Program-made: the position numbers and the translations under genes | Assembly (NCBI RefSeq): GCF_041431135.1 | Contig: NZ_CP107799.1 | Coordinates: 1,612,001-1,676,000 of the forward strand | DNA from: Streptomyces sp. NBC_00554 | GTDB lineage: Bacteria; Actinomycetota; Actinomycetes; Streptomycetales; Streptomycetaceae | Direction: 5' to 3' | DNA length: 64,000 nt | Notes under the pieces: generated by a model | Told to the model about the DNA's origin: nothing | What the model saw: the letters and a program-made list of their open reading frames with translations, nothing else | Database searches by the model: none | Shown: positions 14,265-29,112 of the stretch, in pieces | How positions within the stretch are numbered: the stretch's first letter is position 1 | Layout: each line of letters begins with the position of its first letter

Positions 14265-14320
14265 ATCCGTAGGGGACCATGAAGCGAGTTGGTCCAAGAG
14301 CCGCAGCCCGGAGGAGAACC

Positions 14321-15547
14321 ATGGGACACCTGCGACAGGAGGCCGAGCCGCGCGAGGCCGGCCTCGATCCGAAGGCGCTGGCCCGCCTCGATCAGCATTT
14401 TGCCCACCTCGTCGGGGACGGAAGACTCCCCGGGTACCTCGTGTCCGTGTCCCGGCACGGCCGCGTCGCCCACCTCACCGCCTACGGCTGCCGTGACCGG
14501 GCGGCCGGGCTCCCCGTCGAGACCGACACCCTGTGGCGGATGTACTCGATGACCAAGCCGGTCACCTCGGTCGCCGCGCTGATGCTCCTCGAGGAGGGAC
14601 GCATCCGGCTCGACGACCCCGTCGCCGACTTCCTCCCGGCCTTCGCCGACCCCCAGGTGTACGTCGACGGATCCGGCGCGGACACCAGGACCCGCCCTGC
14701 CGCACAACCCATCCTGATCCGGCACCTGTTGACGCAGACAGCGGGCCTGACCTTCGGCTTCTACCACTCGCATCCCGTCGACGCGCTGTACCGGGGCGCC
14801 GGTCTTGAGTCGTCCGTGCCGCCGGGCGCGGATCTGGCCGAGACGTGCGAGGTGTACGCCGGACTGCCGCTCCAGTTCGAGCCGGGCACGCAGTGGAACT
14901 ACTCGGTCGCCACCAATGTCCTCAGCCGCGTCATCGAGGTGGTCTCCGGCCAGGACCTCGACGAGTTCCTGGCCGAGCGGATCTTCGCACCGCTCGGTAT
15001 GAAGGACGCCGGATTCTGTGTCACGGGCGAGCAGGAGGGCCGGCTGGCCGAGTTGTACGGCGAGGACGACGAGGGCGGGATCACCCCGATCGCCGGGCTG
15101 CCCCTGCACGGCCGCCCCCGCTGCGTGTCCGGGAGCGGCGGCATGGTGGCCACCGCCCACGACTACCACCGCTTCATGGAACTGCTCCGCCTGCGCGGAA
15201 CACTCGACGGCACCCGCCTGCTGAAGCCCGGGACCGTGGACCTGATGGCGTCCAACCACCTCCCCGGCAACGCCGACCGCCGCACCTTCGGCAGCCCGGT
15301 CCACCAGGAGCCCGGCAACGCGGGCCTCGGCTTCGGCCTCGGCGTCTCCGTCGTGGTGGACCCGGAGATCACCCAGTCCCCGACGGGGCAGGGCGCGTAC
15401 GGCTGGAGCGGAGTGGCCGGTACGACGTTCTGGGTCGACCCGGCCAACGACCTGACCGTGCAGTTCCTGACCCAGGTCCGCCCCACCTCCTCCCACTCGG
15501 TCTTCCGCGAGCTGAAGCGACTGGTGCACGAGGCGGTGCTGGACTGA
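14321..15547 (+). CDS. Class C beta-lactamase-like serine hydrolase
   Basis: A 408-residue beta-lactamase/EstB-type serine hydrolase. The SxxK nucleophile motif is YSMTKPVTS, the YxN-like motif is WNYSVATNVL, and the C-terminal G-W-SGVAGT segment corresponds to the third conserved box. No signal peptide is visible, so a cytoplasmic esterase is more likely than a penicillin-binding protein. ATG 14321 follows GGAGGAGAACC directly; an in-frame ATG 42 bases upstream lacks such a site. It stands alone between the MFS exporter and the convergent saccharopine operon, 6 bp from the latter's stop. Confidence 0.8.
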   Translation: MGHLRQEAEPREAGLDPKALARLDQHFAHLVGDGRLPGYLVSVSRHGRVAHLTAYGCRDRAAGLPVETDTLWRMYSMTKPVTSVAALMLLEEGRIRLDDPVADFLPAFADPQVYVDGSGADTRTRPAAQPILIRHLLTQTAGLTFGFYHSHPVDALYRGAGLESSVPPGADLAETCEVYAGLPLQFEPGTQWNYSVATNVLSRVIEVVSGQDLDEFLAERIFAPLGMKDAGFCVTGEQEGRLAELYGEDDEGGITPIAGLPLHGRPRCVSGSGGMVATAHDYHRFMELLRLRGTLDGTRLLKPGTVDLMASNHLPGNADRRTFGSPVHQEPGNAGLGFGLGVSVVVDPEITQSPTGQGAYGWSGVAGTTFWVDPANDLTVQFLTQVRPTSSHSVFRELKRLVHEAVLD

Positions 15548-15553
15548 CCCCGG

Positions 15554-16711
15554 TCACCCGGTCCGCAGGGTGAAGTCCACTCCGTCCCGGGCCAGTTCGG
15601 CGAGCCACTCCTGCGACCGGCCGGCTGTCTCCGCGGCGCGGCTCAGGCCCGGCGGGAGCGAGCCGTCCAGGATGTGACGGACACCGAGGGCGAGCGTGCG
15701 GGAGACGCAGCGGGCCATGGCGCTCTCCTCGGCGGTGCCTTCCAGGTCGAGGAGATAGCGCCCGGACCAGTCCTCCCCCGAGCCCGAGCCGCCGCGCACA
15801 TCCAGCGAGACGGCGAGTACGACCCGGTCACGGTCGGCCTCGGTGGTCGGGTAGGCCGTCGCCAACTCCCGCGCGAGGGCCACGATGCGCTGGTCGTCGC
15901 CCGCCTTCAGCTCCTCGAACACCGCGTCCCAGGCCTGCAGCCAGCCGTCGAGACGGAGGGTGCCGCGGACGAACGTCCCCGGTTTCCAGGCCTCCGGAAG
16001 CCCGTACTGGTCGAGGAAGGGGACGCTGTCACGGTTGGGGTAGACCTCGAAGCTCTCACCGTCGATCACATGAGTGCGGGTCGCCTCCCAGGGGCGGGCG
16101 GCGGTCGTCACCGCGCCGTCCTCGACGTAACGGGCGGGCGAGCGCAGGGCGCCCAGGACGCCTGCCGGTGCCCAGCTGAAGCGGTACTTGAAGTCGTTGG
16201 GCACGGCAGGGATGCCGCCGCAGTACGAGGTGAGGCTGTACGAGGCGGCCGACTCGGCGCCGATCGCCTCCTGGGCGCGGGCGATCAGACTGTGCGCGAA
16301 GAGATGGTCGATGCCCGGGTCGAGCCCGCACTCGGTCAGCACCACGACACCCGCCGCCGCGGCCCCGGGCACCTGTTCCAGAACCGCGTCGGACACATAG
16401 CTGGAGCAGGCGAAGTGGGCGCCGCGTTCGACGCAGGCGGCGAGCAGCGGGGCGTGTTCGGGCGCGGGCAGCATGGAGACGACGACGTCTCCGGGGGCGA
16501 GTTCGGCGGTGAGCGCGGGGAGGGTGTACGCGCGGGGCTCGGCACGCCCGGTCAGACCCAAGGCGGCCAGACTGTGTGCGGCGCGCTCCTCGGTGCGATG
16601 CCACAGTCGTACGCGGTCGGCGGCGTCGCACGTCGCGGCGAGACCGCTTCCGGTGGACAGGCCCGCACCGATCCAGTGCACGGTGCCGCTCGCGGCCGTC
16701 GCCTCAGGCAT
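15554..16711 (-). CDS. Saccharopine dehydrogenase-family protein (reductase-like)
   Basis: A 385-residue protein of the saccharopine dehydrogenase family with an N-terminal NAD(P) fold beginning VHWIGAGLSTG and the LTECGLDPGIDHLFAHSLI and SYCGGIPAVPNDFKYRFSWAP segments of the saccharopine reductase (LYS9-like) group. Such enzymes couple 2-aminoadipate semialdehyde, glutamate and saccharopine. Start ATG 16711 is preceded by GGGGAG. It overlaps the end of the second saccharopine-dehydrogenase-like gene by 8 bp and is the last gene of a five-gene operon. Joint action on a lysine- or opine-like secondary amine is inferred. Confidence 0.75.
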   Translation of the reverse strand: MPEATAASGTVHWIGAGLSTGSGLAATCDAADRVRLWHRTEERAAHSLAALGLTGRAEPRAYTLPALTAELAPGDVVVSMLPAPEHAPLLAACVERGAHFACSSYVSDAVLEQVPGAAAAGVVVLTECGLDPGIDHLFAHSLIARAQEAIGAESAASYSLTSYCGGIPAVPNDFKYRFSWAPAGVLGALRSPARYVEDGAVTTAARPWEATRTHVIDGESFEVYPNRDSVPFLDQYGLPEAWKPGTFVRGTLRLDGWLQAWDAVFEELKAGDDQRIVALARELATAYPTTEADRDRVVLAVSLDVRGGSGSGEDWSGRYLLDLEGTAEESAMARCVSRTLALGVRHILDGSLPPGLSRAAETAGRSQEWLAELARDGVDFTLRTG

Positions 16712-17759
16712 CGCGGAACTCCCCTTCTCTTGCGCCGATTTCACGGCAGGCTTGACGGAACCGGTCGAGACCGCGGCCCCACGCCCCGCCGGTCTCGAAC
16801 TCCAGGAGCATCGGCAGCAGGGCCGCCGAGAAGTCGACGCTCGCCTCCAGCGGCAGCAGGGAGGGCAGGTTGTCGATGGCGATCAGATCGAGGGCGGGCC
16901 GCTCGCGCAGCCGGCGGACGGGCTCCGTCCAGTCCGTGGTGGTGTCGTAGACCGGCAGTACGTTCATCGGCGATCCGACATCGCAGGTGACGTCGCACAG
17001 GGTGCGGAGTCGGCGGCCGGGCTCGTCGAGGTCCTTGTCGGTGAGGAAGGGCGGGACCGGGCTTGTGGTCAGGACGGTGTTGACCATCAACTCGTGTTCC
17101 AGCAAGGCGTGCCGGTCCAGATCGCGGGTCTCGGCGAGGTCCCAGCAGGTGGGCTCGACACCGGCCACCTCCAGCGCGACCCGGGCGCCCCGGCCGCTGC
17201 GGCCCAGGGCGCCGACCACCAGAGCCTTCAACTCACCGCCGTCTCCGGCCAGTTCCACGTCCAGCTCTTCCTTGGACGTCGGCCGGAGCGGGGTCCGGAG
17301 CCTGCCCCGGTGATGCAGCACCGCGAGGGCGGCGCCCAGGTATCCGGCCCAGTAGCCGAAGGCGGCGAGCCTGCGCCCGTCGTCGTCCACCAGGTATTCG
17401 AGGTCGAGCAGGGTCCCGCCGCCCGCGAGGAATCTGCGTAGCAGGGTCTCGGCGCCGGGCTGCTGCTTGTAGGCGTGCCCGAAGAAGATGTGGCGGTGTG
17501 TCAGTGCGGCCGGTTCGTCGGGGAGTTCCTTGAGGCCGAGGACGACCGCGTCCGACGGGGCCGAGACCCAGGTTCCGGTCACGGCGACACGGCAGCCGGC
17601 TTCCTCGTACGCCTCGATCGGGAAGACCCGCTGCGGTGACTCCTCGACGGTGAGGGTCACGCCGCTCTCGACGAGCCGTCGGGCGTCCGCGGGCACGACG
17701 GGCGTGCGCCGCTCGGTCGTACGGGTCTCGTGTCGGAGCCACAAGTGGAGGGCGTTCAT
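16704..17759 (-). CDS. Saccharopine dehydrogenase, LYS1-like
   Basis: A 351-residue alanine dehydrogenase/PNT-type protein matching the lysine-forming saccharopine dehydrogenase (LYS1) layout: HLWLRHETRTTERRTPVVPADARRLVESG at the N-terminus, KELPDEPAALTHRHIFFGHAYKQQ, the Rossmann region GALGRSGRGARVAL and the DVTCDVGSPMNVLPVYD loop. This enzyme class interconverts saccharopine with lysine plus 2-oxoglutarate using NAD. ATG 17759 overlaps the stop of the FAD oxidoreductase (ATGA). With the LYS9-like gene it covers both halves of the saccharopine route, but the context with GTP cyclohydrolase suggests a dedicated rather than general lysine role. Confidence 0.8.
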   Translation of the reverse strand: MNALHLWLRHETRTTERRTPVVPADARRLVESGVTLTVEESPQRVFPIEAYEEAGCRVAVTGTWVSAPSDAVVLGLKELPDEPAALTHRHIFFGHAYKQQPGAETLLRRFLAGGGTLLDLEYLVDDDGRRLAAFGYWAGYLGAALAVLHHRGRLRTPLRPTSKEELDVELAGDGGELKALVVGALGRSGRGARVALEVAGVEPTCWDLAETRDLDRHALLEHELMVNTVLTTSPVPPFLTDKDLDEPGRRLRTLCDVTCDVGSPMNVLPVYDTTTDWTEPVRRLRERPALDLIAIDNLPSLLPLEASVDFSAALLPMLLEFETGGAWGRGLDRFRQACREIGAREGEFRDA

Positions 17760-18901
17760 ACGCAGTTGATCTCCGGGCGCAGGGCGTCGGCGGCGAAGCG
17801 CTCGGCGCTGAGGGGGCTGATGTCGACGAAGGGTACGCGGCCCAGATACAGATCGCGGACCACCTCGCCGACCGCCGGTCCCTGCAGGAATCCGTGGCCG
17901 GAAAACCCTGTCGCGTAAAGGAACCGCGTACACGAACCGGCCTCGCCGATCAGCGCGTTATGGTCCGGTGTCATCTCGTACAGGCCGGCCCAGCCGCCCG
18001 TCCTGCGCAGGTCGAGCAGGGCGGGGGCGCGCCGCTCCATGGCCTCGTACAGGCGCGGGATCCAGCGGTCGTGCGTTTCGGTGGCGAAGCCGGGGGTCTC
18101 GTCGGGGTCGGACATGCCTAGGAGGAGACCGGGGCCCTCGGTGTGGAAGTAGAGGCTGCTGGTGAAGTCGATCGTCATGGGGACGTCCGGCGGCAGCCCG
18201 GGTACGGGCTCGGTGACCGCGATCTGGCGGCGCAGGGGCTCCACCGGAAGGTCCACGCCCACCATCGCGCCGATGGCCCGCGACCAGGCACCGGCCGCGC
18301 AGACGACCGTGTCGGTCTCGATCCGGCCCCGGCTGGTGACCACCGCCGTGATCTCGTCACCACGCAGTTCGATGCCGGTGACCTCGCAGTGCCGCAGCAC
18401 GGTCGCGCCGTGCCGGCGGGCGCCGGCGGCGTAGCCCTGGACGACGGATTCGGGCGTGCAGTGCCCGTCGTCCGGTGAGAAGGCCGCCGCGAGCAGCCCG
18501 TCGGTGCTGATCAGGGGTGAGAGCCGGTGTGCCTCGGCCGGGTCGATCATGCGGCTGGGCACGCCGAGGGAGTTCTGCAGCCGCACGCCCGCCTCGAAGG
18601 AGGCGACCTCCTCGGGTGTGGAGAGCAGGAAGAGATAGCCGACCCGGTGCAGCCCGATGTCCTGGCCCGGCTCCTCGCCGAAGCGGCCGAACGCCTCCAG
18701 ACTCCGGGCGCCCAGCTGGATGTTGAGCTCGTCGGAGAACTGCGCCCGGACCCCGCCGGCGGCCCGCGAGGTCGATCCGGAGGCCAGTTCGTCGCGCTCG
18801 ACGAGCACGACGTCGGGTACGCCCGCACGCGCCAGGTGATAGGCGATGCTCGCGCCCATCACCCCGCCGCCGATGACGAGGACCCGCGCCCTCCCGTTCA
18901 C
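17756..18901 (-). CDS. FAD-dependent amine oxidoreductase (DAO/sarcosine oxidase-like)
   Basis: A 381-residue DAO-family flavoprotein. The dinucleotide motif VLVIGGGVMGASIAYHLA is at the N-terminus, followed by GSTSRAAGGVRAQFSD, and the C-terminal GWAGLYEMTPDHNALIGE and GFSGHGFLQGPAVGE match sarcosine oxidase beta/glycine oxidase proteins. These oxidise secondary or primary amines of amino acids to imines, releasing peroxide or passing electrons on. GTG 18901 overlaps the stop of the ornithine-cyclodeaminase-like gene (GTGA). Between an imine-handling OCD enzyme and two saccharopine dehydrogenases, oxidation of a secondary amine such as saccharopine is a plausible but unproven role. Confidence 0.8.
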   Translation of the reverse strand: MNGRARVLVIGGGVMGASIAYHLARAGVPDVVLVERDELASGSTSRAAGGVRAQFSDELNIQLGARSLEAFGRFGEEPGQDIGLHRVGYLFLLSTPEEVASFEAGVRLQNSLGVPSRMIDPAEAHRLSPLISTDGLLAAAFSPDDGHCTPESVVQGYAAGARRHGATVLRHCEVTGIELRGDEITAVVTSRGRIETDTVVCAAGAWSRAIGAMVGVDLPVEPLRRQIAVTEPVPGLPPDVPMTIDFTSSLYFHTEGPGLLLGMSDPDETPGFATETHDRWIPRLYEAMERRAPALLDLRRTGGWAGLYEMTPDHNALIGEAGSCTRFLYATGFSGHGFLQGPAVGEVVRDLYLGRVPFVDISPLSAERFAADALRPEINCV

Positions 18902-19893
18902 CGGCGGGACTCCTCGGCGCGGGCCGCGTCGATGACGGCCCAGGCCGCGGCGGCGTCCTGGATGCCGAGCCCGACGCTGTTGTAGAAGACGATGTCGTCG
19001 GGGTGCCCCCGGCCCCGGTGCGTGCCGGTGAGTACGCCGCCGAGCGGAATCAGGTCCTCCTGGGCGAGCCGCCCGTCCCGCAGCGCGTCGACGACCGGAC
19101 CGGCGTGCTCCGCCGCCGTCTCCGGGTCGTCGACGACCACCGCCGCGGCCCGCCGTACGACCTCCGCGTCGACCTCGCTCCTGCTGGGCTCGAAGGAACC
19201 GACGCTGACGACCGTGCACCCCGGCGCCAGCCACTCGCCCCGTACGACAGGCGCGCTGCTGAGGGTGCAGGCCGCGACCATCGGCAGTCCGGCGACGGCT
19301 TCCTCGGCCGTTTCGACCGCCTTGACGGCGACTCCGAGTTCGGCCGCGAGGCGCTGCGCCGCGTGCGCCCGGCGACCCGGGTCCGGACTCCACAGCCGTA
19401 CGGACGCCAGCTCCCGTACCCGTGCGACGGCCCGCACATGGGCCAGGGCCTGGGTGCCGGAACCGAGGACGCCGAGTTCCGCGCTGTCGGCGTTGGCCAG
19501 CGCGTCGAAGGCGACGGCGCTCGCCGCTGCTGTGCGCAGGGCCGTCACCGCCGTACCGTCCATGACGGCGGCGAGCTGTCCGGTGACCGGGTCGAGCGCG
19601 TTGATCACCGCGTGGACGGTCGGCAGCCCGGCCGCCGCGTTGCCCGGGTTGACGCTGCCGATCTTGGCGACGGCCCCGGTGGCCGCGGACAGCCGCGCGA
19701 GGTAGGCGAAGACGACGCTGTCGTCGAAGCGGCTGGGGTGCATGATCTTCCCCGGGAGCTCGGCGGTGCCGTCGCCGAGCGCGGTGAAGGCCGCGCGCTG
19801 CGAGGCGATCGCTGTATCGGGGTCGAGCAGCTCCCGCACCTGCTCGCGCGACAAATACAGCGGACCGCCGTCGGCGTCGTCGTCTTCTCTCAT
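18898..19893 (-). CDS. Ornithine cyclodeaminase/mu-crystallin family protein
   Basis: A 331-residue OCD/mu-crystallin enzyme. Typical blocks are LPGKIMHPSRFDDSVVFAYLA, KIGSVNPGNAAAGLPTVHAV, GQLAAVMDGTAVTALRTAAAS and the NAD loop GVLGSGTQALAHV. Members include ornithine or lysine cyclodeaminases, ketimine reductases and opine-forming dehydrogenases. The gene begins 3 bp after the GTP cyclohydrolase stop and overlaps the FAD gene by 4 bp, so it is firmly within one operon. Ketimine reduction would fit best with the amine oxidase next to it, but the sequence does not separate the alternatives. Confidence 0.8.
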   Translation of the reverse strand: MREDDDADGGPLYLSREQVRELLDPDTAIASQRAAFTALGDGTAELPGKIMHPSRFDDSVVFAYLARLSAATGAVAKIGSVNPGNAAAGLPTVHAVINALDPVTGQLAAVMDGTAVTALRTAAASAVAFDALANADSAELGVLGSGTQALAHVRAVARVRELASVRLWSPDPGRRAHAAQRLAAELGVAVKAVETAEEAVAGLPMVAACTLSSAPVVRGEWLAPGCTVVSVGSFEPSRSEVDAEVVRRAAAVVVDDPETAAEHAGPVVDALRDGRLAQEDLIPLGGVLTGTHRGRGHPDDIVFYNSVGLGIQDAAAAWAVIDAARAEESRR

Positions 19894-19896
19894 TCC

Positions 19897-20628
19897 TCAG
19901 TGATAGCCGTCTTTGCCGATCCGCAAAAGATCGCGGTCGACCAAGTGGGATCCGTTGAGGTGGGATCCGCCCAGGTGGGCTCCGTCCAAGTGGGGGAGGT
20001 GGTGGTCCATTCGCTCCCGCTTGGTCAGCAGATAGCTGAGGTTCTCCTCGCACGGCGGGATCAGCAGGGGGACCTGTTCGGCGACCTTGATGCCGTGGCG
20101 CAGCAGTGCCTCGCGCTTGCGCGGGTTGTTCGACATCAGCCGCACGGACCGCACGCCGAGGTCGTGCAGGATCTCCGCCGCCACCCGGTAGTCGCGGGCG
20201 TCCACCGGCAGGCCCTGGGCGAGGTTCGCCTCGACGGTGTCCATGCCCTCCGACTGGAGCTGCATCGCACGGAGCTTGGCGAGCAGGCCTATGCCCCGGC
20301 CCTCGTGGCCCCGGAGGTAGACGAGGATGCCGCGGCCCTCCGCCACGATGGCGCGCAGCGCGGCGGCGAGCTGGTCACCGCATTCGCAGTGCATGGATCC
20401 GAAGGCGTCCCCGGTCAGGCACTCCGAATGAAGACGGGTGAGCGTGTCCCCTTCCCCGATATCGGCCAAGTCCCCGTACACCAGGGCCACTTGTTCCTCT
20501 TCACGGTCGTGGTCGAGGTAACCGACCGCGTGGAAAGCGCCGTACACGGTGGGCAATGGGGCAATCACGACGCGTTCGACACCTGTGAGGTGGGCATTCC
20601 CGCCGAGTACTCCAAAGTTATCTGTCAT
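19897..20628 (-). CDS. GTP cyclohydrolase II, Tyr-to-Met variant (FAPy-forming type)
   Basis: A 243-residue RibA-family enzyme. Zinc ligands are Cys70, Cys81 and Cys83 (SECLTGDAFGSMHCECG), with GHEGRGIGL at 107-115. The residue matching the conserved active-site tyrosine (RAYALQ in E. coli) is Met122 (RAMQLQ). From memory, the Streptomyces coelicolor homologue SCO6655 carries the same substitution and stops at the formylamino-pyrimidine (FAPy) intermediate. The enzyme here is thus probably not a riboflavin enzyme. The C-terminus ends in a pentapeptide-like tail, HLDGA-HLGGS-HLNGS. ATG 20628 follows TAGGA. Only 38 bp separate it from the divergent creatininase-like gene, and it heads the five-gene operon. 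Confidence 0.85.
   Translation of the reverse strand: MTDNFGVLGGNAHLTGVERVVIAPLPTVYGAFHAVGYLDHDREEEQVALVYGDLADIGEGDTLTRLHSECLTGDAFGSMHCECGDQLAAALRAIVAEGRGILVYLRGHEGRGIGLLAKLRAMQLQSEGMDTVEANLAQGLPVDARDYRVAAEILHDLGVRSVRLMSNNPRKREALLRHGIKVAEQVPLLIPPCEENLSYLLTKRERMDHHLPHLDGAHLGGSHLNGSHLVDRDLLRIGKDGYH
19942..20001 (-). repeat. 15-bp periodic repeat encoding the tail of GTP cyclohydrolase
   Basis: Four consecutive 15-bp units starting at 19942, 19957, 19972 and 19987 share the AGGTGGGATCCG-type core. They encode HL-containing pentapeptides at the C-terminus. Confidence 0.8.
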
Positions 20629-20666
20629 GATCTGATTCCTAAGCAGAGTCGAAAGGCCGTGAAAAC

Positions 20667-21497
20667 ATGAGTGGTTCGGGAACGCGCTCGACGGTATCCG
20701 GTCTGTTGCCGGTTGACACCACCGAAGACGTACGGGCGCGCGGGGCGGATGTGTCACGGCAGGTCGCCGTGCTTCCGGTCGGAAGCTTCGAACAACACGG
20801 TGCGTTCCTGCCGCTCGCGACGGACACGCTCGTCGCGTGTGCCATCGCGCGGGAGGTCGCCGCCGCGTATCCGGTCCATCTCCTTCCTCCGGTGACGATC
20901 TCCTGCTCGCACGAGCACGCCGCGTGGCCGGGGACCGTCAGCATCTCTTCCGTCACGCTCCACGCGGTGGTCAGGGACATCGCCGATTCGCTCCGCCGGT
21001 CCGGCGTCGACACGCTGGTGCTGGTCAACGGACACGGCGGAAACTACGTACTGGGCAATGTGGTTCAGGAATCCGCGGGCAGCGGTACGCGGATGGCGCT
21101 TTTCCCGGCCATGGAGGACTGGGACGCCGCGAGGGAACGGGCCGGAGTACAGACCTCGCTGCTCAGCGATATGCACGCGGGGGAAATAGAGACCTCCATT
21201 CTTCTGCACGCCCATCCGGAATTGGTCAAGGCCGGTTACGAGACTTCCGATTTCCTCGCGGACGACCGGCGGCATCTGCTCACCCTCGGTATGTCCGCCT
21301 ATACCGAGTCCGGTGTCATCGGCCGTCCCTCGATGGCCAGCGCCGAGAAGGGGAAGGAACTCCTGGCCGGGCTGACCGAGGCGTTCGCGGCGTATTTCTC
21401 CCTGGTGACGGCCAAGACACTGCCCTTGGAAACCGGGAGTTCGGAGACCGGGAGCGGCGAGACCGGGAGTCGCAGGACCGGGACTGCGGAGATCTGA
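20667..21497 (+). CDS. Creatininase-family amidohydrolase, possible FAPy deformylase
   Basis: A 276-residue creatininase-family metal hydrolase. Metal-binding motifs are visible in order: VGSFEQHGAFLPLATDT (about 38-54), HEHAAWPGT, NGHGGNY and DMHAGEIETS. The family includes creatininase, the mycofactocin peptidase MftE and the archaeal FAPy deformylase ArfB. Because it starts 38 bp from a FAPy-type GTP cyclohydrolase, deformylation of that product is the attractive assignment; this is inference. The last 25 residues are an ETGSx repeat tail with no family counterpart. The 3' end overlaps the convergent membrane-protein gene by 199 bp. Confidence 0.8.
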   Translation: MSGSGTRSTVSGLLPVDTTEDVRARGADVSRQVAVLPVGSFEQHGAFLPLATDTLVACAIAREVAAAYPVHLLPPVTISCSHEHAAWPGTVSISSVTLHAVVRDIADSLRRSGVDTLVLVNGHGGNYVLGNVVQESAGSGTRMALFPAMEDWDAARERAGVQTSLLSDMHAGEIETSILLHAHPELVKAGYETSDFLADDRRHLLTLGMSAYTESGVIGRPSMASAEKGKELLAGLTEAFAAYFSLVTAKTLPLETGSSETGSGETGSRRTGTAEI

Positions 21498-22558
21498 ACC
21501 TCGGGGGTCTGCACCTCGGAGATCTGCACCTCGGCGGTCGCTGATCGTCGGCATTCTTCGTGCCCTCCTGCGCTCTCCTCGCGGGGGCGCCGGAGCGCCG
21601 CCGCCCACCGGACGACCAGGACGGCGACGCCGGGCAGGCTCGCGGCGAAGCTGAGCACGCCGTAGACCACGGCGACAGTAAGGCCCATGCTCGCGCCGAG
21701 CCCCGCGGCACCGAACGCCCAGGCGGCGACGCCCTCACGCGGGCCCCAGCCGCCGACGTTCAGGGGCAGCCCCATGGCGATCAGGGCCAGCAGCGCCAAC
21801 GGCAGCAACTCGGCGGGGGACGCGGTGGATCCGGCGACGCGGGCGGCGAGCAGGAACGTGGCCAGGTGACCGGCCAGCACCACGACCGAGGAAAGCGCCA
21901 GGCCCGGCCAGCTCCCCCGGGCGAGCAGAGTGCCGCGTGCTTCGACGAGCGCGGCGCGGAAGGCACCGTACCGCTGGGAGCGGCTGGGCGTCCGCACCCG
22001 GCGCACCGCGCCGACGGTCACGACTCCGCACACCGAGACGATCGCCAGGACCAGGGCGAAGTGGCGGGTCTCCGTGAGCACCGGGGACGGCTGGGTGAGC
22101 AGCACCACCACTCCGACCACGGCCAACACCGCCTGGCCCGCGGTCCGTTCCAGGACCACCGCCCGTACGCCGCGCCCGACGTCCCCGGCGCTCTGGCCGT
22201 GCCGTACGGCGCGGTGCACATCGCCGAGGACCCCGCCGGGCAGCGCCGCGTTGAGGAACAGCGCCCGGTAGTAGTCCGCGACGGCCTGCACCAGCGGCAG
22301 CCGGATCCGCAGCCCGCGCGCCACCAGGCACCAACGCCAGGCGCTGAACACCGTGGTGACCAGCCCGATCGCGACGGCCGCAAGCAGCGCCATCCCGTCG
22401 ACCCTCCGCAGCCCGTCCAGGAAGACACCCGTACCGAGCCGCCAGAGCAGCACCGCGAGAATCACGGCACCGGCGACGGTGCCGATGTGGGTGCGGATCC
22501 GGCGGGAGTTGACGCGGGTGCGCTTCGGACTCGTGGTCACGTCCGCCCCCGCGCTCAC
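21299..22558 (-). CDS. UPF0104/lysylphosphatidylglycerol synthase TM-like membrane protein
   Basis: A 419-residue integral membrane protein of the LPG-synthase-TM/UPF0104 (flippase-like) family. The marks are PGGVLGDVHRAVRHG, VLERTAGQAVLAVVGVV and LPLNVGGWGPREGVAAW, with about eight hydrophobic helices up to residue 325. The final 95 residues are not membrane-like and read through a 15-bp repeat array as EVQIS-type pentapeptides, then run antisense to the creatininase coding region. GTG 22558 overlaps the methyltransferase stop (GTGA). It is the last gene of the five-gene operon and could move a lipid-linked or glycosylated product across the membrane (inference). Confidence 0.75.
   Translation of the reverse strand: MSAGADVTTSPKRTRVNSRRIRTHIGTVAGAVILAVLLWRLGTGVFLDGLRRVDGMALLAAVAIGLVTTVFSAWRWCLVARGLRIRLPLVQAVADYYRALFLNAALPGGVLGDVHRAVRHGQSAGDVGRGVRAVVLERTAGQAVLAVVGVVVLLTQPSPVLTETRHFALVLAIVSVCGVVTVGAVRRVRTPSRSQRYGAFRAALVEARGTLLARGSWPGLALSSVVVLAGHLATFLLAARVAGSTASPAELLPLALLALIAMGLPLNVGGWGPREGVAAWAFGAAGLGASMGLTVAVVYGVLSFAASLPGVAVLVVRWAAALRRPREESAGGHEECRRSATAEVQISEVQTPEVQISAVPVLRLPVSPLPVSELPVSKGSVLAVTREKYAANASVSPARSSFPFSALAIEGRPMTPDSV
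21429..21533. repeat. 15-bp periodic array shared by two convergent genes
   Basis: Seven 15-bp units beginning at 21429. The first four share GAGACCGGGAG-type cores and the last three GAGATCTGCACCTCG-type cores. Both strands are coding in part: ETGSx on plus, EVQxx/xLPVS on minus. Confidence 0.85.
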
Positions 22559-23487
22559 AGCGCCCCACCCGTCGGCCGGGGAAGCGCCAGCACATCGCTG
22601 TGGTGGACCACCACGCGCAGTTCACCCGCGGCGGCCGCCGCCACCCGGGACCGCAGATACGTCTCTGCGTGGGCGGCGAGTTCGGGTCGCTCCTCGCAGG
22701 CCGCGCCGACCCAGCCGCGCAGCCACTCCTCGGTGAGCGCGGCGGTGTCGGGGCCGAGCCGCCAGGGGCTCGGGTGGGTGCGGACCGTCGCGCCGTAGCG
22801 GGCGAAGGCCTCGCAGGTGGCCGTGATGGCTTCGGGACCGAGCAGGTCACCGCGGCGCTGGTGGGCGTTGAACGCCTCGGCGAACTCGGCGTCGAGCGGT
22901 TCGGCCGGGGTGAATTCGACCCGGCCGACGACGGAGAGCGTCAGCAGGGCCGGCACTCCGGCGCCCGCACAGGCCGCCGCGAGGCGGTCGATCTCGTCAC
23001 CGGTGAGCACGTCGAGCAGCGCGGAGGCCGTCACCAGCGAGGCCCCGGCCAAGGCGTCCGCGGTCAGCCGGCCGATGTCACCGCGCTGCGTGGTGACCGT
23101 GACCCGGCTGCCGTCGGCGGCAGCGCGCGGTGCGCCCACCGTCGCGAAGTGGAGCAGATAGGGGTCCCGGTCGTGCAGGATCCAGTGCTGACCGCCGTCG
23201 AGCCTGGGCGCGAGCCAGCGGCCCATGGACCCCGTGCCACAGCCGAGGTCGTGAATCACCAGGTCGTCGCCGCGTACCGGCCGGTTCGCGAGACGGATAC
23301 GCAGCGGGTCCAGCAAGTCGGACGCCCGTGCGGCGGCATCGGCGCCTTCGCGCAGCTGCAGCCACTGGGGCGCGTAACGAGGCACGTCATCGGCGCCGAC
23401 CGCGTCGACGCGCTCCCCCGGCACTCCCGCCCGAATCTCCGGCTCGGGCACGCCGGGCAGACCTGAGGGAGTGGTGGCCGTACTCAT
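22555..23487 (-). CDS. SAM-dependent methyltransferase
   Basis: A 310-residue class I methyltransferase-like protein. The SAM-binding motif I is VIHDLGCGTGSMGRWLAPRL (about residues 65-84), followed by HDRDPYLLHFA, the acidic second strand. ATG 23487 overlaps the glycosyltransferase stop (ATGA), and the stop overlaps the membrane-protein start. The substrate is unknown. Position between a glycosyltransferase and a flippase-like protein suggests tailoring of a small molecule. Confidence 0.8.
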   Translation of the reverse strand: MSTATTPSGLPGVPEPEIRAGVPGERVDAVGADDVPRYAPQWLQLREGADAAARASDLLDPLRIRLANRPVRGDDLVIHDLGCGTGSMGRWLAPRLDGGQHWILHDRDPYLLHFATVGAPRAAADGSRVTVTTQRGDIGRLTADALAGASLVTASALLDVLTGDEIDRLAAACAGAGVPALLTLSVVGRVEFTPAEPLDAEFAEAFNAHQRRGDLLGPEAITATCEAFARYGATVRTHPSPWRLGPDTAALTEEWLRGWVGAACEERPELAAHAETYLRSRVAAAAAGELRVVVHHSDVLALPRPTGGAL

Positions 23488-24686
23488 GCCGCCCTCCTGG
23501 GTTCCCGCGGCAGCCGTCCCAGGACGCCGGCCAGGCTCCGGGCCGTGGTGGCCCAGCCGTTCAGCGCGGCACGCCGGCCGCGGGCGGCCGCCTTCAGACG
23601 ACGGCGTACGTCGGCCTCGCCGAACCAGCCGCGCAGTTCCACGGCGAGAGCCGCCGGGTCCTCCGGTGGTACGAGGATGCCGGGCACTCCGCCGTCGGGT
23701 GCGCGCCCGACGGCCTCGGGCAGGCCGCCGACGTCGGTCGCAAGGACCGGGATGCCGCGCGCGAGCGCCTCGGTGACGGCCATGCCGTACGTCTCGGCGT
23801 AAGAGGTGAGGACCATCAGGTCCGCCGCAGCGTAGCTCGCGTCGAGTTCGGCGCCCACCTGCGGTCCGGCCAGGTGCAGCCGGTCGCCGAGGCCGTGCTT
23901 CTCGATCAGGGCGCGGAGCTCGGTGACGTACGCCGGATCCTGGCCGAGTGCGCCGACGCAGACGCAGCTCCAGGGCAGGTCGGTGACGGTCGCGAGGGCC
24001 TCGACCAGCCGGTGCTGCCCCTTGCGCGGGGTGACCGCCGCGACGCACAGCAGCCGCGAGACCCCGTCGGTGCCGGAGGCGATCGGCGCGATGTCGGCGC
24101 CGGGTTCGGCGACATGGACCCGGTCGGGGGCGAGCCCGTGGTGGGCCACGAGCCGGCGCACCGCCCATTCGCTGGTGGCCACGACGGCCGACACGGCCCG
24201 CAGCGTCGTACGTTCCTTGGCGTCCAGTTCGGCCGCCACGGCAGGTGCGAGCCCCGTCTCGTCGCCGAGCGGCAGGTGCACGAGGACGGTGAGGGCGAGC
24301 CGTTCGGCCTCGGGGACGATGATCTCGGGGACGCCGCAGGCGACGAGTCCGTCGAGCAGGACGGTTGTGCCGTCCGGCAGTTCCCGCAGCGTGCGGGCGA
24401 GTTCGGTGCGGGCGGCGGCTCCGGGGCGCGGCCACTCGCCCGCGACGGCGTGCCGGTGGACCTGCCAGCCGAAGCCGGGCAGGTCCAGGCAGAGCCGGCG
24501 GTCATACGCGTTGCCGCCGCTCGGCGCGGCCGGGTCGTCGACGCCGCCCGGCATGACGAAGTGCACGGAGTTCAGGGACATGGGGATGATCTCGGCCTTC
24601 TGGAGAGCCGCGTTCTGCACCGGCACGTAGTTCAGGGAAGCCTGGTTCCCGTTCACGGATGCCTGGTCGATGGTCGTGTCGGTCAC
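23484..24686 (-). CDS. GT4-family glycosyltransferase
   Basis: A 400-residue retaining GT-B glycosyltransferase. The C-terminal GT4 pattern is clear: [15 protein letters not shown], the [27 protein letters not shown] segment and the EX7E motif in [27 protein letters not shown]. The N-terminal 36 residues before [13 protein letters not shown] are poorly conserved-looking, so an internal start is possible. GTG 24686, however, overlaps the PTPS stop (GTGA) like the other junctions in this operon. Donor and acceptor are unknown. Confidence 0.8.
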
Positions 24687-25081
24687 AGCGCACGCTCGTA
24701 ACTCGCCCAGGCGATGTGCGACTCGTGCAGGGTGACGGTGATGCCCGCGAGCCCTTGGGCGCCCTCGCCCAGCGCCCCGGCGTGCACGCGGTCGGCGAGG
24801 CGGTCGGCGATGACCTTGGCCAGGAACTCCGTCGAGGTGTTGGTGCCCTTGAAGACCGGTTCGTTGTCGAGGTTGCGGTAGTTCAGGTCGCTTACGACAG
24901 CGCCGAGCTCCTGGGTGGCCAGCCCGATGTCGACGACGATGTTGTCGTCGTCCAGCTCGGCGCGGCGAAAGGTGGCGTCCACCAGGAACGTCGCCCCGTG
25001 CAGGCGCTGCGCGGGGCCGAAGACCTCGCCACGGAAGCTGTGGGCGATCATCAGGTGATCGCGGACGGTGATGCTGAACAA
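24683..25081 (-). CDS. 6-pyruvoyltetrahydropterin synthase/QueD homologue lacking key residues
   Basis: A 132-residue PTPS/QueD fold. Zinc-site histidines His14 and His28 are present. Aligned to E. coli QueD (HKCGRLHGHSF), the local sequence [10 protein letters not shown] has Ala24 for the nucleophilic cysteine and Ala30 for the third zinc histidine. The C-terminal [12 protein letters not shown] keeps the conserved glutamate (Glu120). The chemistry must therefore differ from PTPS or QueD. A TTG start at 25081 is supported by GGAGGG seven bases upstream. From memory, S. coelicolor SCO6650 is a structurally studied relative clustered with the Met-type GTP cyclohydrolase SCO6655. Confidence 0.8.
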
Positions 25082-25162
25082 CGGACGACCCTCCAGGTGC
25101 GGTGCGTCTGATCCCCTGCCGGGACCGTGCCGTGTAGTACGGCTGGTCCGTACTCCTTGTTC

Positions 25163-25199
25163 AGCTGCCTGTTCCCCTTTCTTCGGAGGTCAGGCAGCT
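25163..25199. terminator. Hairpin between MDR dehydrogenase and PTPS-like genes
   Basis: AGCTGCCTG (25163-25171) pairs perfectly with CAGGCAGCT (25191-25199). It may terminate or attenuate readthrough from the dehydrogenase, leaving the PTPS-led operon with its own promoter in the remaining 80 bp. Confidence 0.5.
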
Positions 25200-25209
25200 T
25201 GTTCCGGAC

Positions 25210-26190
25210 TCAAACCCCGTCGTAGACCACGCGGTGACACAAGGCGGGTATCGAACCGGAAGCCAATTTGCCCATCGCGTCGGGCAGTTCCTCGAATCGG
25301 CACTCGCCCGTGACAAGCGCGTCGAAGGCGGGGTCGGCGAGCAGTTCGAGGGCGAGCGCGAACCGGTCGGCGTACGTACGGCCCGCTCGCCGCGCGGGGG
25401 AAAGGGAACCCACCTGGCTGCTGCGGACCGTCAGGCGCCGCGAGTGGAAGGCCTCCCCCAGCGGCAGGCTGATCCGCCGGTCGCCGTACCAGCTGAGTTC
25501 GATCACGGTGCCTTCAGGGGCGAGGAGTTCCAGCGCCCGCGAGAGCCCGGACTCGGTGGCGCTGGCGTGCACGACGAGGTCGAGATCGCCGGCCGCGTCC
25601 TCGGGAAGCGCGAAGTCGACACCGAGTGCCCGCGCGATGTCACCGCGTGCCGGATCGGCGTCGACGAGCTGGACCCTTACCCCCGGGAACCGGGCAAGGA
25701 GCGCGGCGACGGAGCAGCCGACCATGCCGCCGCCCACCACCGCGATCCGGTCGCCGATCAGCGGCGCGGCGTCCCACAGGGCGTTCACCGCGGTCTCCAC
25801 GGTCCCGGCGAGCACGGCGCGCGAGGCCGGCACGGAATCCGGTACGACGGTCACGGCGCTCGCGGGGACGACGTACCGCGTCTGGTGCGGATACAGGCAG
25901 AAGACGGTCCGGCCGAGCAGCGCCGCGGGCCCCTCCTCCACCAGGCCGACGTTGAGATAGCCGTACTTCACGGGTGCCGGGAAATCGCCGTCCTGGAACG
26001 GTGCGCGCATCGCGGTGTACTGGTTCTCCGGTACACCGCCACGGAAGACGAGGGTCTCGGTACCCCGGCTCACCCCGGAATAGAGCGTGCGTACGAGCAC
26101 CTCGTCCTCGGCGGGTTCCGACAAGGCTGTTTCCCGTATCTCGCCGTGTCCCGGCGAGCCGATCCAGAAGGCTCGGGCTGTGAGTTCCAT
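25210..26190 (-). CDS. Zinc-type MDR dehydrogenase
   Basis: A 326-residue medium-chain dehydrogenase/reductase. It has the GroES-like N-terminal half (LVRTLYSGVSRGTETLVFRG), then a Rossmann core IAVVGGGMVGCSVAALLARFP, the LVDADPAR acidic turn and GTVIELSWYGDR. Such proteins are often called 2-desacetyl-2-hydroxyethyl bacteriochlorophyllide or threonine dehydrogenase-like; the true substrate is unknown. The cysteine-rich structural zinc lobe is missing. ATG 26190 follows AGGGGACC. It is upstream of the PTPS-led operon on the same strand with a 128-bp gap that contains a hairpin. Confidence 0.75.
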   Translation of the reverse strand: MELTARAFWIGSPGHGEIRETALSEPAEDEVLVRTLYSGVSRGTETLVFRGGVPENQYTAMRAPFQDGDFPAPVKYGYLNVGLVEEGPAALLGRTVFCLYPHQTRYVVPASAVTVVPDSVPASRAVLAGTVETAVNALWDAAPLIGDRIAVVGGGMVGCSVAALLARFPGVRVQLVDADPARGDIARALGVDFALPEDAAGDLDLVVHASATESGLSRALELLAPEGTVIELSWYGDRRISLPLGEAFHSRRLTVRSSQVGSLSPARRAGRTYADRFALALELLADPAFDALVTGECRFEELPDAMGKLASGSIPALCHRVVYDGV

Positions 26191-26310
26191 GAGGGTCCCC
26201 TGAACGATCCGGCAGATCTTCACGTACGGAGCGGTGACAAGCCGCGCACTGTACGCGGCGTTGATCGACTCTGTCATACGGGCCGACCGGCGCGACATCA
26301 GGCGACTGCG

Positions 26311-27450
26311 TCAGAAGGCGTGGGAGTCCGGCTGGGACACGAGCGAACGGACCTCGTTCGCCAGTACCCGGCCCGTGTCCACCTCGGGAGAGACCAGTCG
26401 GGTGCGGGTGAGGGCGAAGGAGAGGCCCCGCTCGCGGTCGGCGAAGGCGATGCTGCCGCCGCTTCCGTGGTGGCCGAAGGATGTCGTCTCCCTCGCCATT
26501 TCGGGCAGGCCGAGGAAGTAGCCGAGCCCCTTGGTGGACCTGCCGAGGAACGTCCTGTCCTTGCCGTCGACCGCTACGGCGGAGGCGAGCCGTGTCCGCT
26601 CCGGGGTGAGCAGCCGTACGCCGTCGACCTCGCCGAGGAGCGCGGCGTACATGCGCGCCGCCGCCCGTGCGGTGGTCGTACCGCCGGCGGGCAGGTCCGC
26701 GAGCAGGTAGTCGCGGCGGTTGGCCAGTTCGGCGGTGGTCCACACGCTGCGGTTCGGTGCGACGAGCCGGACGAAGGGCACGGACGGCGGCAGGCTTTCC
26801 AGGTACGCCGCCCAGTCGCCCTCCACCAGCGGTGCCGTGCGCGGCAGTTCGCTCTCCGGCAGTCCGTAGAAGAGCTCGTCGGCGACGCCGAGGGGCTCCG
26901 CGACGTACGTGCGCAGCGCCTCGGCCGGAGTCAGGCCGGTGATCCGGCGCACGGTCTCGCCGAGGATCCAGCCGAACGTCCAGCCGTGGTAGCCGCTGGC
27001 GGTGCCGGGCTCCCACAGGGGTTCCTGCGCCGCGACGATCGCGCACATCGTGTCCCAGTCGCACAGCTCGGCCGGGGTGATGGCGGCGGGCAGCTGCGGT
27101 ACGCCCGTGGCGTGGGTCAGGGCGTGCCGTACGGTGGCGCGGTCCTTGCCGTGGGCTCCGAACTCGGGCCAGTAGTGGGCGATCGGGGTGTCGTAGTCGA
27201 TCAGCCCGCGGTCGGCGAGGATGTGAACGAGGGTCGCGGTGAAGCCCTTGCCGAGCGAGAAGCTGTGGATCAGCGTGTCGGGTGCGAGGGCTCTGCCCGG
27301 GGAGGCGTCGCCCGCGCACGCGTCGACGATCAGCTCGCCGTCGAGATACACCGCTACCTGGAGACCGTTCTCCTGCCCCGACTCCACGAGCCGTTCGAGG
27401 ACGGCACCCACCCGCGCCCGCATCCGTGCACCCACGTCGTCGCGACTCAC
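26311..27450 (-). CDS. Beta-lactamase-family serine hydrolase
   Basis: A 379-residue serine hydrolase of the class C beta-lactamase/esterase type. The SxxK box is SFSLGKGF (serine near residue 66), the YxN-equivalent is SGYHGWTFGWILGE, and a late FGHHGSGGS segment stands where KTG/HxG lies. No signal peptide is seen. GTG 27450 overlaps the stop of the upstream MFS gene (GTGA), which decides the start and indicates co-transcription under the TetR palindromes near 29.1 kb. The physiological substrate is unknown. Confidence 0.75.
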   Translation of the reverse strand: MSRDDVGARMRARVGAVLERLVESGQENGLQVAVYLDGELIVDACAGDASPGRALAPDTLIHSFSLGKGFTATLVHILADRGLIDYDTPIAHYWPEFGAHGKDRATVRHALTHATGVPQLPAAITPAELCDWDTMCAIVAAQEPLWEPGTASGYHGWTFGWILGETVRRITGLTPAEALRTYVAEPLGVADELFYGLPESELPRTAPLVEGDWAAYLESLPPSVPFVRLVAPNRSVWTTAELANRRDYLLADLPAGGTTTARAAARMYAALLGEVDGVRLLTPERTRLASAVAVDGKDRTFLGRSTKGLGYFLGLPEMARETTSFGHHGSGGSIAFADRERGLSFALTRTRLVSPEVDTGRVLANEVRSLVSQPDSHAF

Positions 27451-28895
27451 CTGGGCATCATGGCACCGGTCTCCGACTCCGCAGGTGATCCCTCGAAGGA
27501 CGCACGGGGCTTACCGGAGATCCGCCCGGGGCGCTGGACGGGCACGAGGAGCGCCGCCAGGGCCGCGGCGAGGCAGAGCAGGGCGAGCAGGGTGAAGCCG
27601 TGGGTGTATCCGGAGGCGTACGGCAGGCCCGAGGGCTGGAGGTGCCCGGTGACCAGGACGCTGGTCACGGCCGCGCCGATGGAGCCGCCGATGGTGCGGA
27701 TGTTGGCGTTCATGCCGGTCGCGGCGCCGGTCTGTTCGGCCGGGACGCTGCCGACGATCAGGTTGGCCATCGAGGCGAAGGCCAGTCCGATGCCGAGGCC
27801 GAAGATGCCCGCGGCGACGGCCACCTGCCACTGCTGGTCGTGCCAGAGGGCGAGGAAGCCGCAGGCCACGGCGCCGAGCGCGGCGCCGGTCGTGAGCAGT
27901 TTCTTGGCGCCCAGTACGGGTTCCAGGCGACCGCTCAGCACGCCCGAGCAGAACATCGCGATCAGCATCGGCAGCATGAGCAGTCCGGCCGCGGTGACGC
28001 TCGAGCCGAAGCCGTAACCCGCGGAGCTCGGGGTCTGTACGAAGCCGGGGAGGAAGGACCAGATCGAATACATGCCCGCGCCGAACAGCAGGGCGGCGGC
28101 GTTGGTGGTCCACACGGCGGGCAGCCGCATGATGCGCAGGTCGATCAGCGGAGAGCGGGAGCGCGCCTCGGCCAGCAGCCACAGCGCGAAGAGCAGCACG
28201 GCGGCGGCGAAAAGACCGACCACCCGGGCCGATCCCCAGCCCCACCGGCTCGCCTGGCTGAGCGGGAGCAGCAGGGCCACCAGCCAGCCGGAGAGTAGTA
28301 CGGCGCCGAGCCAGTTGACGCGTCCCTCGGCCCGGCTGGGCGACTCGGGAACGTAGCGCAGGGCGATGAGCGTGGTGACGGCGACGATGCCGACGGGGAG
28401 CCAGAACAGCCAGCGGTAGTCGAGCGCGGTCACGATGGGACCGGCGGCCACCATGCCCACGCCGCCGCCCGCGGCGATCACCGCGGACAGGTTGCTGATG
28501 CTGGGGCTGACCTCGGCGGGGGTGAACTCGTCCCGGATGATGCCGAAGGACAGCGGGAACAGCGCGCCGCCGATGCCCTGGACGACCCGGGCGACGATCA
28601 GAACCCCGATGGTCGGGGCGAGCGCGGCGAGCAGACAGCCGATGGTCACGGTCACCAGGACGGCGACGAGGGTGCGTTTCTTGCCGATCAGGTCGCCGAC
28701 GCGGCCGAGTATCGGGGTGAAGACCGATGCGGACAGCAGGTACGCCGTCATCACCCAGGTCGCGGTGGACTGCGAGGTGTGCAGTGCGTGCTGAACGGTC
28801 GGCAGGGCCGGCGCGATCAGCGACTGGAGCATGGAGAACACGCCCGCACCGGTCGCGAGGACCGCGAAGGTGAGGCGGGTGGACTTCCGGGGCAT
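27447..28895 (-). CDS. DHA2-family MFS exporter
   Basis: A 482-residue, 14-helix MFS exporter. TM1 reads FSMLQSLIAPALPTVQHAL, the loop 2-3 motif is GRVGDLIGKKRTL, and motif C-like AAGGGVGMVAAGPIV lies in TM5. The frame is open for about 190 bases further upstream, but ATG 28895 begins the TM1 region and follows GGAGAGG. The gene diverges from the TetR gene at 29185. Two adjacent AGyGGAGG-N4-CCTCCrCT palindromes between them point to drug-inducible repression. Confidence 0.8.
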   Translation of the reverse strand: MPRKSTRLTFAVLATGAGVFSMLQSLIAPALPTVQHALHTSQSTATWVMTAYLLSASVFTPILGRVGDLIGKKRTLVAVLVTVTIGCLLAALAPTIGVLIVARVVQGIGGALFPLSFGIIRDEFTPAEVSPSISNLSAVIAAGGGVGMVAAGPIVTALDYRWLFWLPVGIVAVTTLIALRYVPESPSRAEGRVNWLGAVLLSGWLVALLLPLSQASRWGWGSARVVGLFAAAVLLFALWLLAEARSRSPLIDLRIMRLPAVWTTNAAALLFGAGMYSIWSFLPGFVQTPSSAGYGFGSSVTAAGLLMLPMLIAMFCSGVLSGRLEPVLGAKKLLTTGAALGAVACGFLALWHDQQWQVAVAAGIFGLGIGLAFASMANLIVGSVPAEQTGAATGMNANIRTIGGSIGAAVTSVLVTGHLQPSGLPYASGYTHGFTLLALLCLAAALAALLVPVQRPGRISGKPRASFEGSPAESETGAMMPR

Positions 28896-29112
28896 GAAAA
28901 GGGCCTCTCCGAGCAGGGCAGAGCGGAGCAGAGTCGCCGCGAGGCAGCGCCGAGCACTCCGGCGACGGCGCGGGGCGGTCGCTGAAGGGAAGGGATGGTG
29001 GGTACGGGCGGTGCGGCGTGCGCAGGGCCCGGTACGGGGTCGAAGCGGGAGCCGGCGCGTCGGCGATGCGTGCGGCCGCACGCATCCACGCGGAGAACAC
29101 CCCGACTGGTAA

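Follow-up and report, generated by a model that had tools for sequence, protein, structure and literature searches.

Between positions 15554 and 26190 of a 64,000-nucleotide stretch of DNA from Streptomyces sp. NBC_00554 (contig NZ_CP107799.1, positions 1,612,001 to 1,676,000; hereafter, the window) lie eleven genes, and the pathway that they may encode, together with the question of which of them belong to it, is the subject of this report. The genes fall into three groups: a minus-strand group running from a medium-chain dehydrogenase (MDR) to a flippase-like membrane protein (LPG), a plus-strand gene for a creatininase-like hydrolase (CRN), and a second minus-strand group running from a homologue of GTP cyclohydrolase II (GCH2) to a Lys9-type saccharopine dehydrogenase (SDH) (Table 1). 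The original prediction, made from the sequence alone, had described eleven genes in three units, and the coordinates and orientations match. It had also spoken of almost no intergenic space, which is accurate for neighbors on the same strand, with overlaps of 4 or 8 bases and, in the case of GCH2 and OCD, a gap of 3 bases, but not for MDR and PTPS, which are 128 bases apart. The divergent starts of GCH2 and CRN are separated by 38 bases, and the ends of the flippase-like and creatininase genes overlap by 199 bases (21299-21497); an antisense tail resembling this overlap is kept in the 12 relatives compared for it. Nine of the eleven genes pass the Pfam cut-off of the family named, while the methyltransferase (MT) and MDR genes score below theirs. 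An Rfam scan of the window gave 0 matches.

Table 1. Genes at the locus and beside it, with positions in the window
Feature	Position	Strand	Group	Family match or remark
MDR, medium-chain dehydrogenase, weakly BchC-like	25210-26190	-	core	Pfam ADH_zinc_N, just under cut-off
PTPS homologue, SCO6650 family, without HGH zinc motif and Cys	24683-25081	-	core	Pfam PTPS; 3d7j, E=3e-75
GT4 glycosyltransferase	23484-24686	-	core	Pfam PF00534
MT, class I SAM methyltransferase	22555-23487	-	core	Pfam Methyltransf_25, under cut-off
LPG, LPG_synthase_TM, flippase-like membrane protein	21299-22558	-	core	PF03706
CRN, creatininase-family hydrolase, candidate deformylase of the formamidopyrimidine nucleotide (FAPy)	20667-21497	+	core	PF02633
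GCH2, GTP cyclohydrolase II homologue, Met-type	19897-20628	-	core	PF00925
OCD/mu-crystallin family reductase	18898-19893	-	accessory block	PF02423
DAO, FAD amine oxidase, sarcosine-oxidase/glycine-oxidase-like	17756-18901	-	accessory block	PF01266; within longer frame 17756-20053
Lys1-type saccharopine dehydrogenase (lysine-forming family)	16704-17759	-	accessory block	PF05222; 3ugk, E=4.8e-66
Lys9-type saccharopine reductase (glutamate-forming family)	15554-16711	-	accessory block	PF16653, PF03435; 1e5l, E=2.3e-42
CDP-alcohol phosphatidyltransferase gene, 5' remnant	26199-26281	+		gene found in 61/61 compared loci
Beta-lactamase-family hydrolase and MFS transporter	26311-29081	-	outside core	occupy the place of the CDP-alcohol phosphatidyltransferase of relatives
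Beta-lactamase-family serine hydrolase, convergent neighbor	14279-15547	+		PF00144; in 44/60 fetched loci

The comparison of this locus across the genus separates a constant core from a variable block. A total of 150 genomes of the genus were searched, that of the window included, and PTPS was found in 67 of them; 60 stretches were fetched from 59 PTPS-positive genomes (G020 contributing two), the genome of the window being the 60th, and the seven PTPS-positive genomes left out at first lie on short contigs, of which L106 to L108 and G085 were read later. Removal of L011 and L045, where the contig ends inside the locus, and of L065, a lone PTPS gene, and addition of L105 from another draw gave 58 uncut loci, in which a gene was called intact if its best match covered more than 70% of the query with no internal stop, stops at the alignment ends being disregarded. 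Eight genes, namely those for a CDP-alcohol phosphatidyltransferase (CDP), MDR, PTPS, GT4, MT, LPG, CRN, and GCH2, were intact in all 58 loci. In contrast to this core, the four genes downstream of GCH2 formed a mosaic: OCD was intact in 13 loci, broken in 2, and absent from 43; DAO was intact in 25, broken in 4, and absent from 29; the Lys1-type gene was intact in 27, broken in none, and absent from 31; and the Lys9-type gene was intact in 25, broken in 1, and absent from 32. All four were intact in 9 of the 58 loci and none was present in 25, the rest carrying partial or broken sets. Since the Lys9-type gene of G128 (L021) is split in two, that of G122 (L014) contains a stop, and the Lys1-type genes of G108 and G087 also carry a stop, decay of the block is, if anything, undercounted, and the full sets number 8 instead of 9 if L021 is taken as broken. 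The closest relative of the window (L006) lacks the two SDH genes, and the junction there is sharp. Genes of the block (OCD, DAO, and Lys1- and Lys9-type) had no match near the cluster in 80 loci from outside the genus, which are described below.

The saccharopine block is dispensable while the core persists, and we read it as a local neighbor; a core role was rejected because of the mosaic in the genus and the lack of a match near the distant clusters. The original prediction had placed the block in the same pathway and had named its absence from most cyclohydrolase loci as the outcome that would speak against this; the Lys9-type gene is in fact absent or broken in 33 of the 58, and all four genes stand intact in 9/58 loci within the genus and 0/80 beyond it. 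The neighborhood comparison that it had proposed for the cyclohydrolase and its partners therefore bears out the association for the core, and not for the OCD-DAO-SDH-SDH block. Distance correlations among the core proteins (0.64 to 0.88) carry no weight here, as they are expected from common descent.

The front end of the core consists of the cyclohydrolase and the creatininase-like hydrolase. In an alignment, the residue of the window's GCH2 that corresponds to E. coli Tyr105 is Met, in place of the Tyr of the riboflavin type, and two other GCH2 copies in the same genome both have Tyr. SCO6655 is the Met-type GCH2 of Streptomyces coelicolor, and this enzyme reportedly stops at FAPy. The C terminus of the window's GCH2 (19897-19992) carries a short HLxGxHLxG-type repeat that is not found in the 12 relatives compared for it. 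The creatininase-like protein keeps the EQHG, NGHGGN, and HAG motifs, and it falls under the NCBIfam cut-offs for ArfB, MftE, and creatininase. Every Met-type GCH2 observed has a creatininase-like neighbor, in 61/61 loci of the first set and 16/16 of a second (9 of its genomes being new), and Tyr-type GCH2 genes without a creatininase-like gene within 3.5 kb numbered 24 in the first set and 14 in the second, counts that take in copies outside any PTPS cluster and, for the second set, stretches of only about 3.6 kb. The third enzyme of the archaeal route to which this pair may be compared is RibD_C-like. In that route, FAPy formation and deformylation are divided between two enzymes, and the Sinorhizobium protein BrbF, a bacterial member of the creatininase family annotated as creatininase, deformylates exactly this FAPy, its FAPy-forming partner being yet to be discovered according to its authors (PMC9478397). 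The window would share with the archaeal ArfA-ArfB(-ArfC) and BrbF systems the making of FAPy and its deformylation by two enzymes, and it differs from them in having a GCH2 homologue as its first enzyme and GT4, MT, and membrane proteins alongside. Deformylation by the creatininase-like protein is therefore likely, and a putative FAPy-type cyclohydrolase with a candidate creatininase-family deformylase, as originally proposed, agrees with the joint occurrence of the two genes in 58/58 loci.

Since RibD_C is frequent beside the cluster outside the genus, yet absent beside the window, it was sought elsewhere in the genome, and a copy was found about 3.7 Mb away, less than 1 kb from the third, Tyr-type GCH2; this second locus of the window's genome (L231:7795-10352) holds the Tyr-type GCH2 and a divergent RibD_C gene. 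An unlinked copy of at least 72% identity is present in 54/67 PTPS-positive and 4/83 PTPS-negative genomes (Fisher p ~2e-23), and RibD_C at E<=1e-45 in 56/67 and 19/83 (p ~7e-14); these statistics ignore kinship, and the 72% limit was chosen after the list was seen, which tempers the case made here. RibD_C lies inside the locus in nine genomes, all of them among the 13 positives without a copy of at least 72% identity. These nine are the only fetched genus loci with an in-locus RibD_C, and none has such an unlinked copy as well. G085 has its own RibD_C copy (64%) beside its MDR and PTPS, and G139 has a partial copy (66%); no RibD_C was found in the PTPS-positive genomes G001 (79% complete) and G130 (99% complete, in about 780 contigs). 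A RibD_C-type reductase, unlinked or in-locus, is therefore present in 65 of the 67 PTPS-positive genomes (54 + 9 + G085 + the partial copy of G139), and in our view this unlinked/in-locus pattern speaks most strongly for RibD_C as part of the pathway in the genus. In one genome (L242:184-2233), MDR, PTPS, and RibD_C genes of another sub-family (MDR and PTPS 68 to 73% identical) are adjacent, and no further cluster gene was matched on that contig.

The catalytic residue of PTPS/QueD enzymes is a Cys, and their HGH motif binds zinc. In the PTPS homologue of the window, compared with QueD-like relatives, the Cys is missing and HGA stands in place of HGH (FGPA..HGA motif), and the protein stays under the curated NCBIfam cut-off for QueD, so the residue-depleted PTPS of the original prediction holds, the second His of HGH and the Cys being lost. 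Its sole match in the PDB is SCO6650 (entry 3d7j). In common with the QueD/PTPS family (COG0720), it has Pfam PTPS membership and an invariant Glu near the C terminus, which presumably binds the ring. The portion of PMC5041015 at hand describes the classes PTPS-I to PTPS-IV only. The sub-family of the window differs from the QueD/PTPS family in FGPA..HG[HA], the loss of HGH and Cys, and a gene context of its own. Lone PTPS paralogues (73 to 80% identical) also occur off-cluster, at L065:5996-6385, L086:9480-9869, and L196:10001-10396, one of them on a plasmid adjoining MEKHLA-domain and cupin genes.

The remaining core proteins are assigned in more general terms. GT4 resembles the EpsE and MshA models with scores below their cut-offs, and MDR scores far under the cut-off of the NCBIfam BchC model and gave no match at 1e-5 in a PDB sequence search. 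The AlphaFold model of MT (mean pLDDT 86.6) has generic class I methyltransferase matches, and a PDB sequence search with MT returned only a restriction enzyme (E=0.048). Between MT and the flippase-like gene (window 22508-22542), L006 has about 655 additional bases. The CDP-alcohol phosphatidyltransferase gene (PF01066), divergent from MDR and present in 61/61 compared loci (trimmed query), is reduced in the window to its first codons, up to about 26281, the point at which the resemblance to the closest relative breaks off abruptly; a homologue of 52% identity lies elsewhere in the genome. By family, this enzyme and the flippase-like protein suggest a link to the membrane. The inclusion of GT4, the methyltransferase, and the flippase-like protein in a GTP-derived set, as first suggested, agrees with their being intact in 58/58 loci. 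The gene list given then was correct for the eleven genes, and it overlooked the CDP-alcohol phosphatidyltransferase, lost here, and the unlinked RibD_C.

The cluster is not confined to the genus. One genome per species (84,980 in all) was scanned with an alignment led by a distant PTPS, in a search that demanded HG[HA], and the 80 loci named here, the best 80 of at least 569 relatives, many of them from metagenome-assembled genomes and many on short stretches, span Rubrobacter, Chloroflexota, Alpha-, Beta-, and Gammaproteobacteria, Acidobacteriota, Nocardioides, and others. Within 7.5 kb of PTPS, MDR was matched in 76 of the 80, GT4 in 76, RibD_C in 64, MT in 55, CDP in 42, GCH2 in 33, LPG in 27, and CRN in 20; in the 50 loci with at least 16 kb of sequence, GT4 was found in 50, MDR in 49, RibD_C in 43, and MT in 37. 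Of the 80 PTPS motifs, 68 end in HGA and 12 in HGH. A locus from another family of the class (L067) has the order MDR-PTPS-GT4-MT-LPG-GCH2-RibD_C, and annotated plasmids of Methylosinus, Agrobacterium, Microbacterium, and Thiodictyon hold overlapping gene sets with RibD in each. In Rubrobacter loci, FolB and an acyltransferase adjoin the cluster, which hints at pterins. Ten named loci of the type L127:10439-12351 have a further gene after the trio, which we take to be a four-carbon acid sugar kinase, and six of them have an aldolase-like gene. A GTP-derived pathway with sugar and methyl transfer, as foreseen originally, is in keeping with the core genes standing together in 58/58 loci and with their sub-sets in other phyla.

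On the whole, we lean towards reading the locus as the Streptomyces edition of a widespread cluster for a GTP-derived, sugar-decorated product, with the OCD-DAO-SDH-SDH block as an accessory. From the gene content, conservation, co-occurrence, and residues observed, we infer every reaction and the product as follows: (i) the Met-type cyclohydrolase would open GTP and halt at FAPy, and the creatininase-like hydrolase would take off the formyl group; (ii) the RibD_C reductase, unlinked in this genome, would reduce the ribosyl side chain or a later ring, a step yielding a 2-amino-4-oxo-pyrimidine with the 2-amino group retained; (iii) the PTPS homologue and MDR would rework the pyrimidine unit, probably towards a pterin; (iv) GT4 would attach a sugar and MT a methyl group; and (v) the CDP-alcohol phosphatidyltransferase and the flippase-like protein would serve a product that is phosphodiester- or lipid-linked and passes through the membrane. 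The OCD-DAO-Lys1-Lys9 block would be a dispensable lysine/pipecolate/saccharopine module apart from the core pathway. As the product, we would guess at a pterin or diaminopyrimidine that is glycosylated and perhaps linked to a lipid. The bolder proposal, that the cluster makes unprecedented membrane-associated pterin (or diaminopyrimidine) phosphoglycolipids in several phyla, through an archaeal-like split start and a re-purposed PTPS that has lost its metal site, is one that we think doubtful.

Besides the caution attached to the RibD_C statistics, several observations weigh against this reading: (i) the CDP-alcohol phosphatidyltransferase gene may be dispensable, as the window has lost it; (ii) the creatininase-like protein scores 37.9 bits with the ArfB model, against a cut-off of 180 bits, and 16 loci of the Halomonas/Acidobacteria type combine a Tyr-type GCH2 with a creatininase-like gene (27 to 35% identical), so that the hydrolase may act otherwise, at least there; (iii) the nearly constant set outside the genus is MDR-PTPS-GT4 only, and in the 50 loci with at least 16 kb CDP was found in 30, GCH2 in 27, LPG in 25, and CRN in 18, so that the front end may differ between loci or be encoded elsewhere; and (iv) in the 150 genomes searched, close orthologues of the block genes are confined to those with PTPS, as could also be the case for a shared pathway. 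That the creatininase-like protein is solely a helper of the Met-type GCH2 was rejected as a complete explanation, because the 16 Tyr-type loci carry such a gene too. As to the confinement of the block, matches to OCD at 71% identity or more came from 15 genomes, to DAO at 82% or more from 30, to the Lys1-type gene at 75% or more from 31, and to the Lys9-type gene at 72% or more from 30, in each case all PTPS-positive (window's genome included), and the block is therefore tied to this locus, whether through function or through descent. In G149, a genome without PTPS, remnant-like fragments of both SDH genes (54 to 59% identical) lie at L103:9283-9875.

Two accounts give the block a share in the product. 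In the first, it would tailor the core product, and only where strains have retained it, the lysine unit being an optional decoration; the confinement to PTPS-positive genomes combined with the mosaic of block sub-sets speaks for this, and we nevertheless think it doubtful, because an OCD, an amine oxidase, and two SDH types could, on general knowledge of these pathways, be a self-contained set, and because the next relatives of the SDH pair stand away from the other window genes and, in four annotated cases, by lysine-hydroxylase genes. The composition of the block is in line with such a set. The best solved match of OCD is a pyrroline-2-carboxylate reductase, and both SDH proteins (Lys1 and Lys9 are the yeast names of the two saccharopine dehydrogenases) are related in sequence to saccharopine-pathway enzymes, the Lys1-type over residues 2-341 of 351 (3ugk) and the Lys9-type over residues 9-261 of 385 (1e5l), with both of its Pfam domains present. 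Judged by these families, OCD, DAO, and the SDH pair would be a closed lysine-pipecolate-saccharopine module. In the second account, all eleven genes form one pathway, in which OCD, DAO, and the two SDHs make a lysine- or glutamate-derived amine that is attached to the GTP-derived core. GCH2-OCD-DAO-SDH-SDH is one apparent operon, joined by few-base overlaps or the 3-base gap, and the confinement of the close orthologues can be claimed for this account too. We consider it unlikely, as the core is whole in every uncut locus with the full block in 9 and none of it in 25, as the block is unmatched near the 80 distant clusters, and as L006 lacks both SDH genes. That the core is a second riboflavin or an ordinary pterin/queuosine route is most improbable: GCH2, RibD_C, and PTPS belong to families of those pathways, but the PTPS lacks HGH and Cys and falls under the QueD cut-off, two further GCH2 copies of the Tyr type lie in the genome, and we know of no place for GT4, MT, flippase-like, and CDP-alcohol genes in riboflavin, pterin, or queuosine routes.

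The distant SDH pairs just mentioned (L089-L097; 54 to 66% identical to those of the window) lie in other places with no other window gene alongside, and a lysine/ornithine N-hydroxylase gene lies nearby in the four annotated loci (L089, L091, L093, and L096), three of which have a DAO gene and one of which (L096) has a cupin/MetRS fusion (not all genes being scanned). L091:3971-17191 is an azaserine-type cluster with azs gene families in azs order as far as scanned, the P450 place being unscanned. AzsH and AzsI of the azaserine cluster are called saccharopine dehydrogenases (PMC10445470). The azaserine and triacsin clusters (AzsH/AzsI, Tri23/Tri24) resemble the window in their pair of Lys1-type and Lys9-type SDHs, and they differ from it in that the open reading frames of the window scanned (14279-29081) held no lysine N-hydroxylase or cupin/MetRS family member. 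The distant pairs may turn oxidase-derived allysine back into lysine. The DAO of the window as a hydrazinoacetic-acid oxidase was rejected, since it had no tblastn match in the loci holding one (L089-L097 being searched), and a PF13434 search for lysine-hydroxylase genes gave matches in 20/20 genomes and is not discriminating.

To conclude, the reading that we prefer is a core for a GTP-derived, sugar-decorated product with an accessory block. The PTPS of the window is of the SCO6650 family (3d7j), and a close counterpart of the locus is the SCO6650-SCO6655 region of S. coelicolor, the members of which, to our knowledge, have been described only as single proteins. Our searches of the open-access literature gave nothing on the pathway or a product of it, its occurrence outside Streptomyces, the link to RibD_C, or the CDP-alcohol gene, which agrees with the original view of an undescribed pathway, and the pathway is real, widely conserved, and apparently undescribed. 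The cluster provides a setting for the orphan structure SCO6650 and for the Met-type cyclohydrolase, and in the unlinked RibD_C it gains a partner, concrete and open to testing, that is invisible from the locus itself. The Met-type cyclohydrolase is here paired with a creatininase-family enzyme; the FAPy-forming partner of BrbF is, in the words of its authors, yet to be discovered (PMC9478397). A core so widely kept probably makes something of lasting value to Rubrobacter, Halomonas, and Streptomyces alike.

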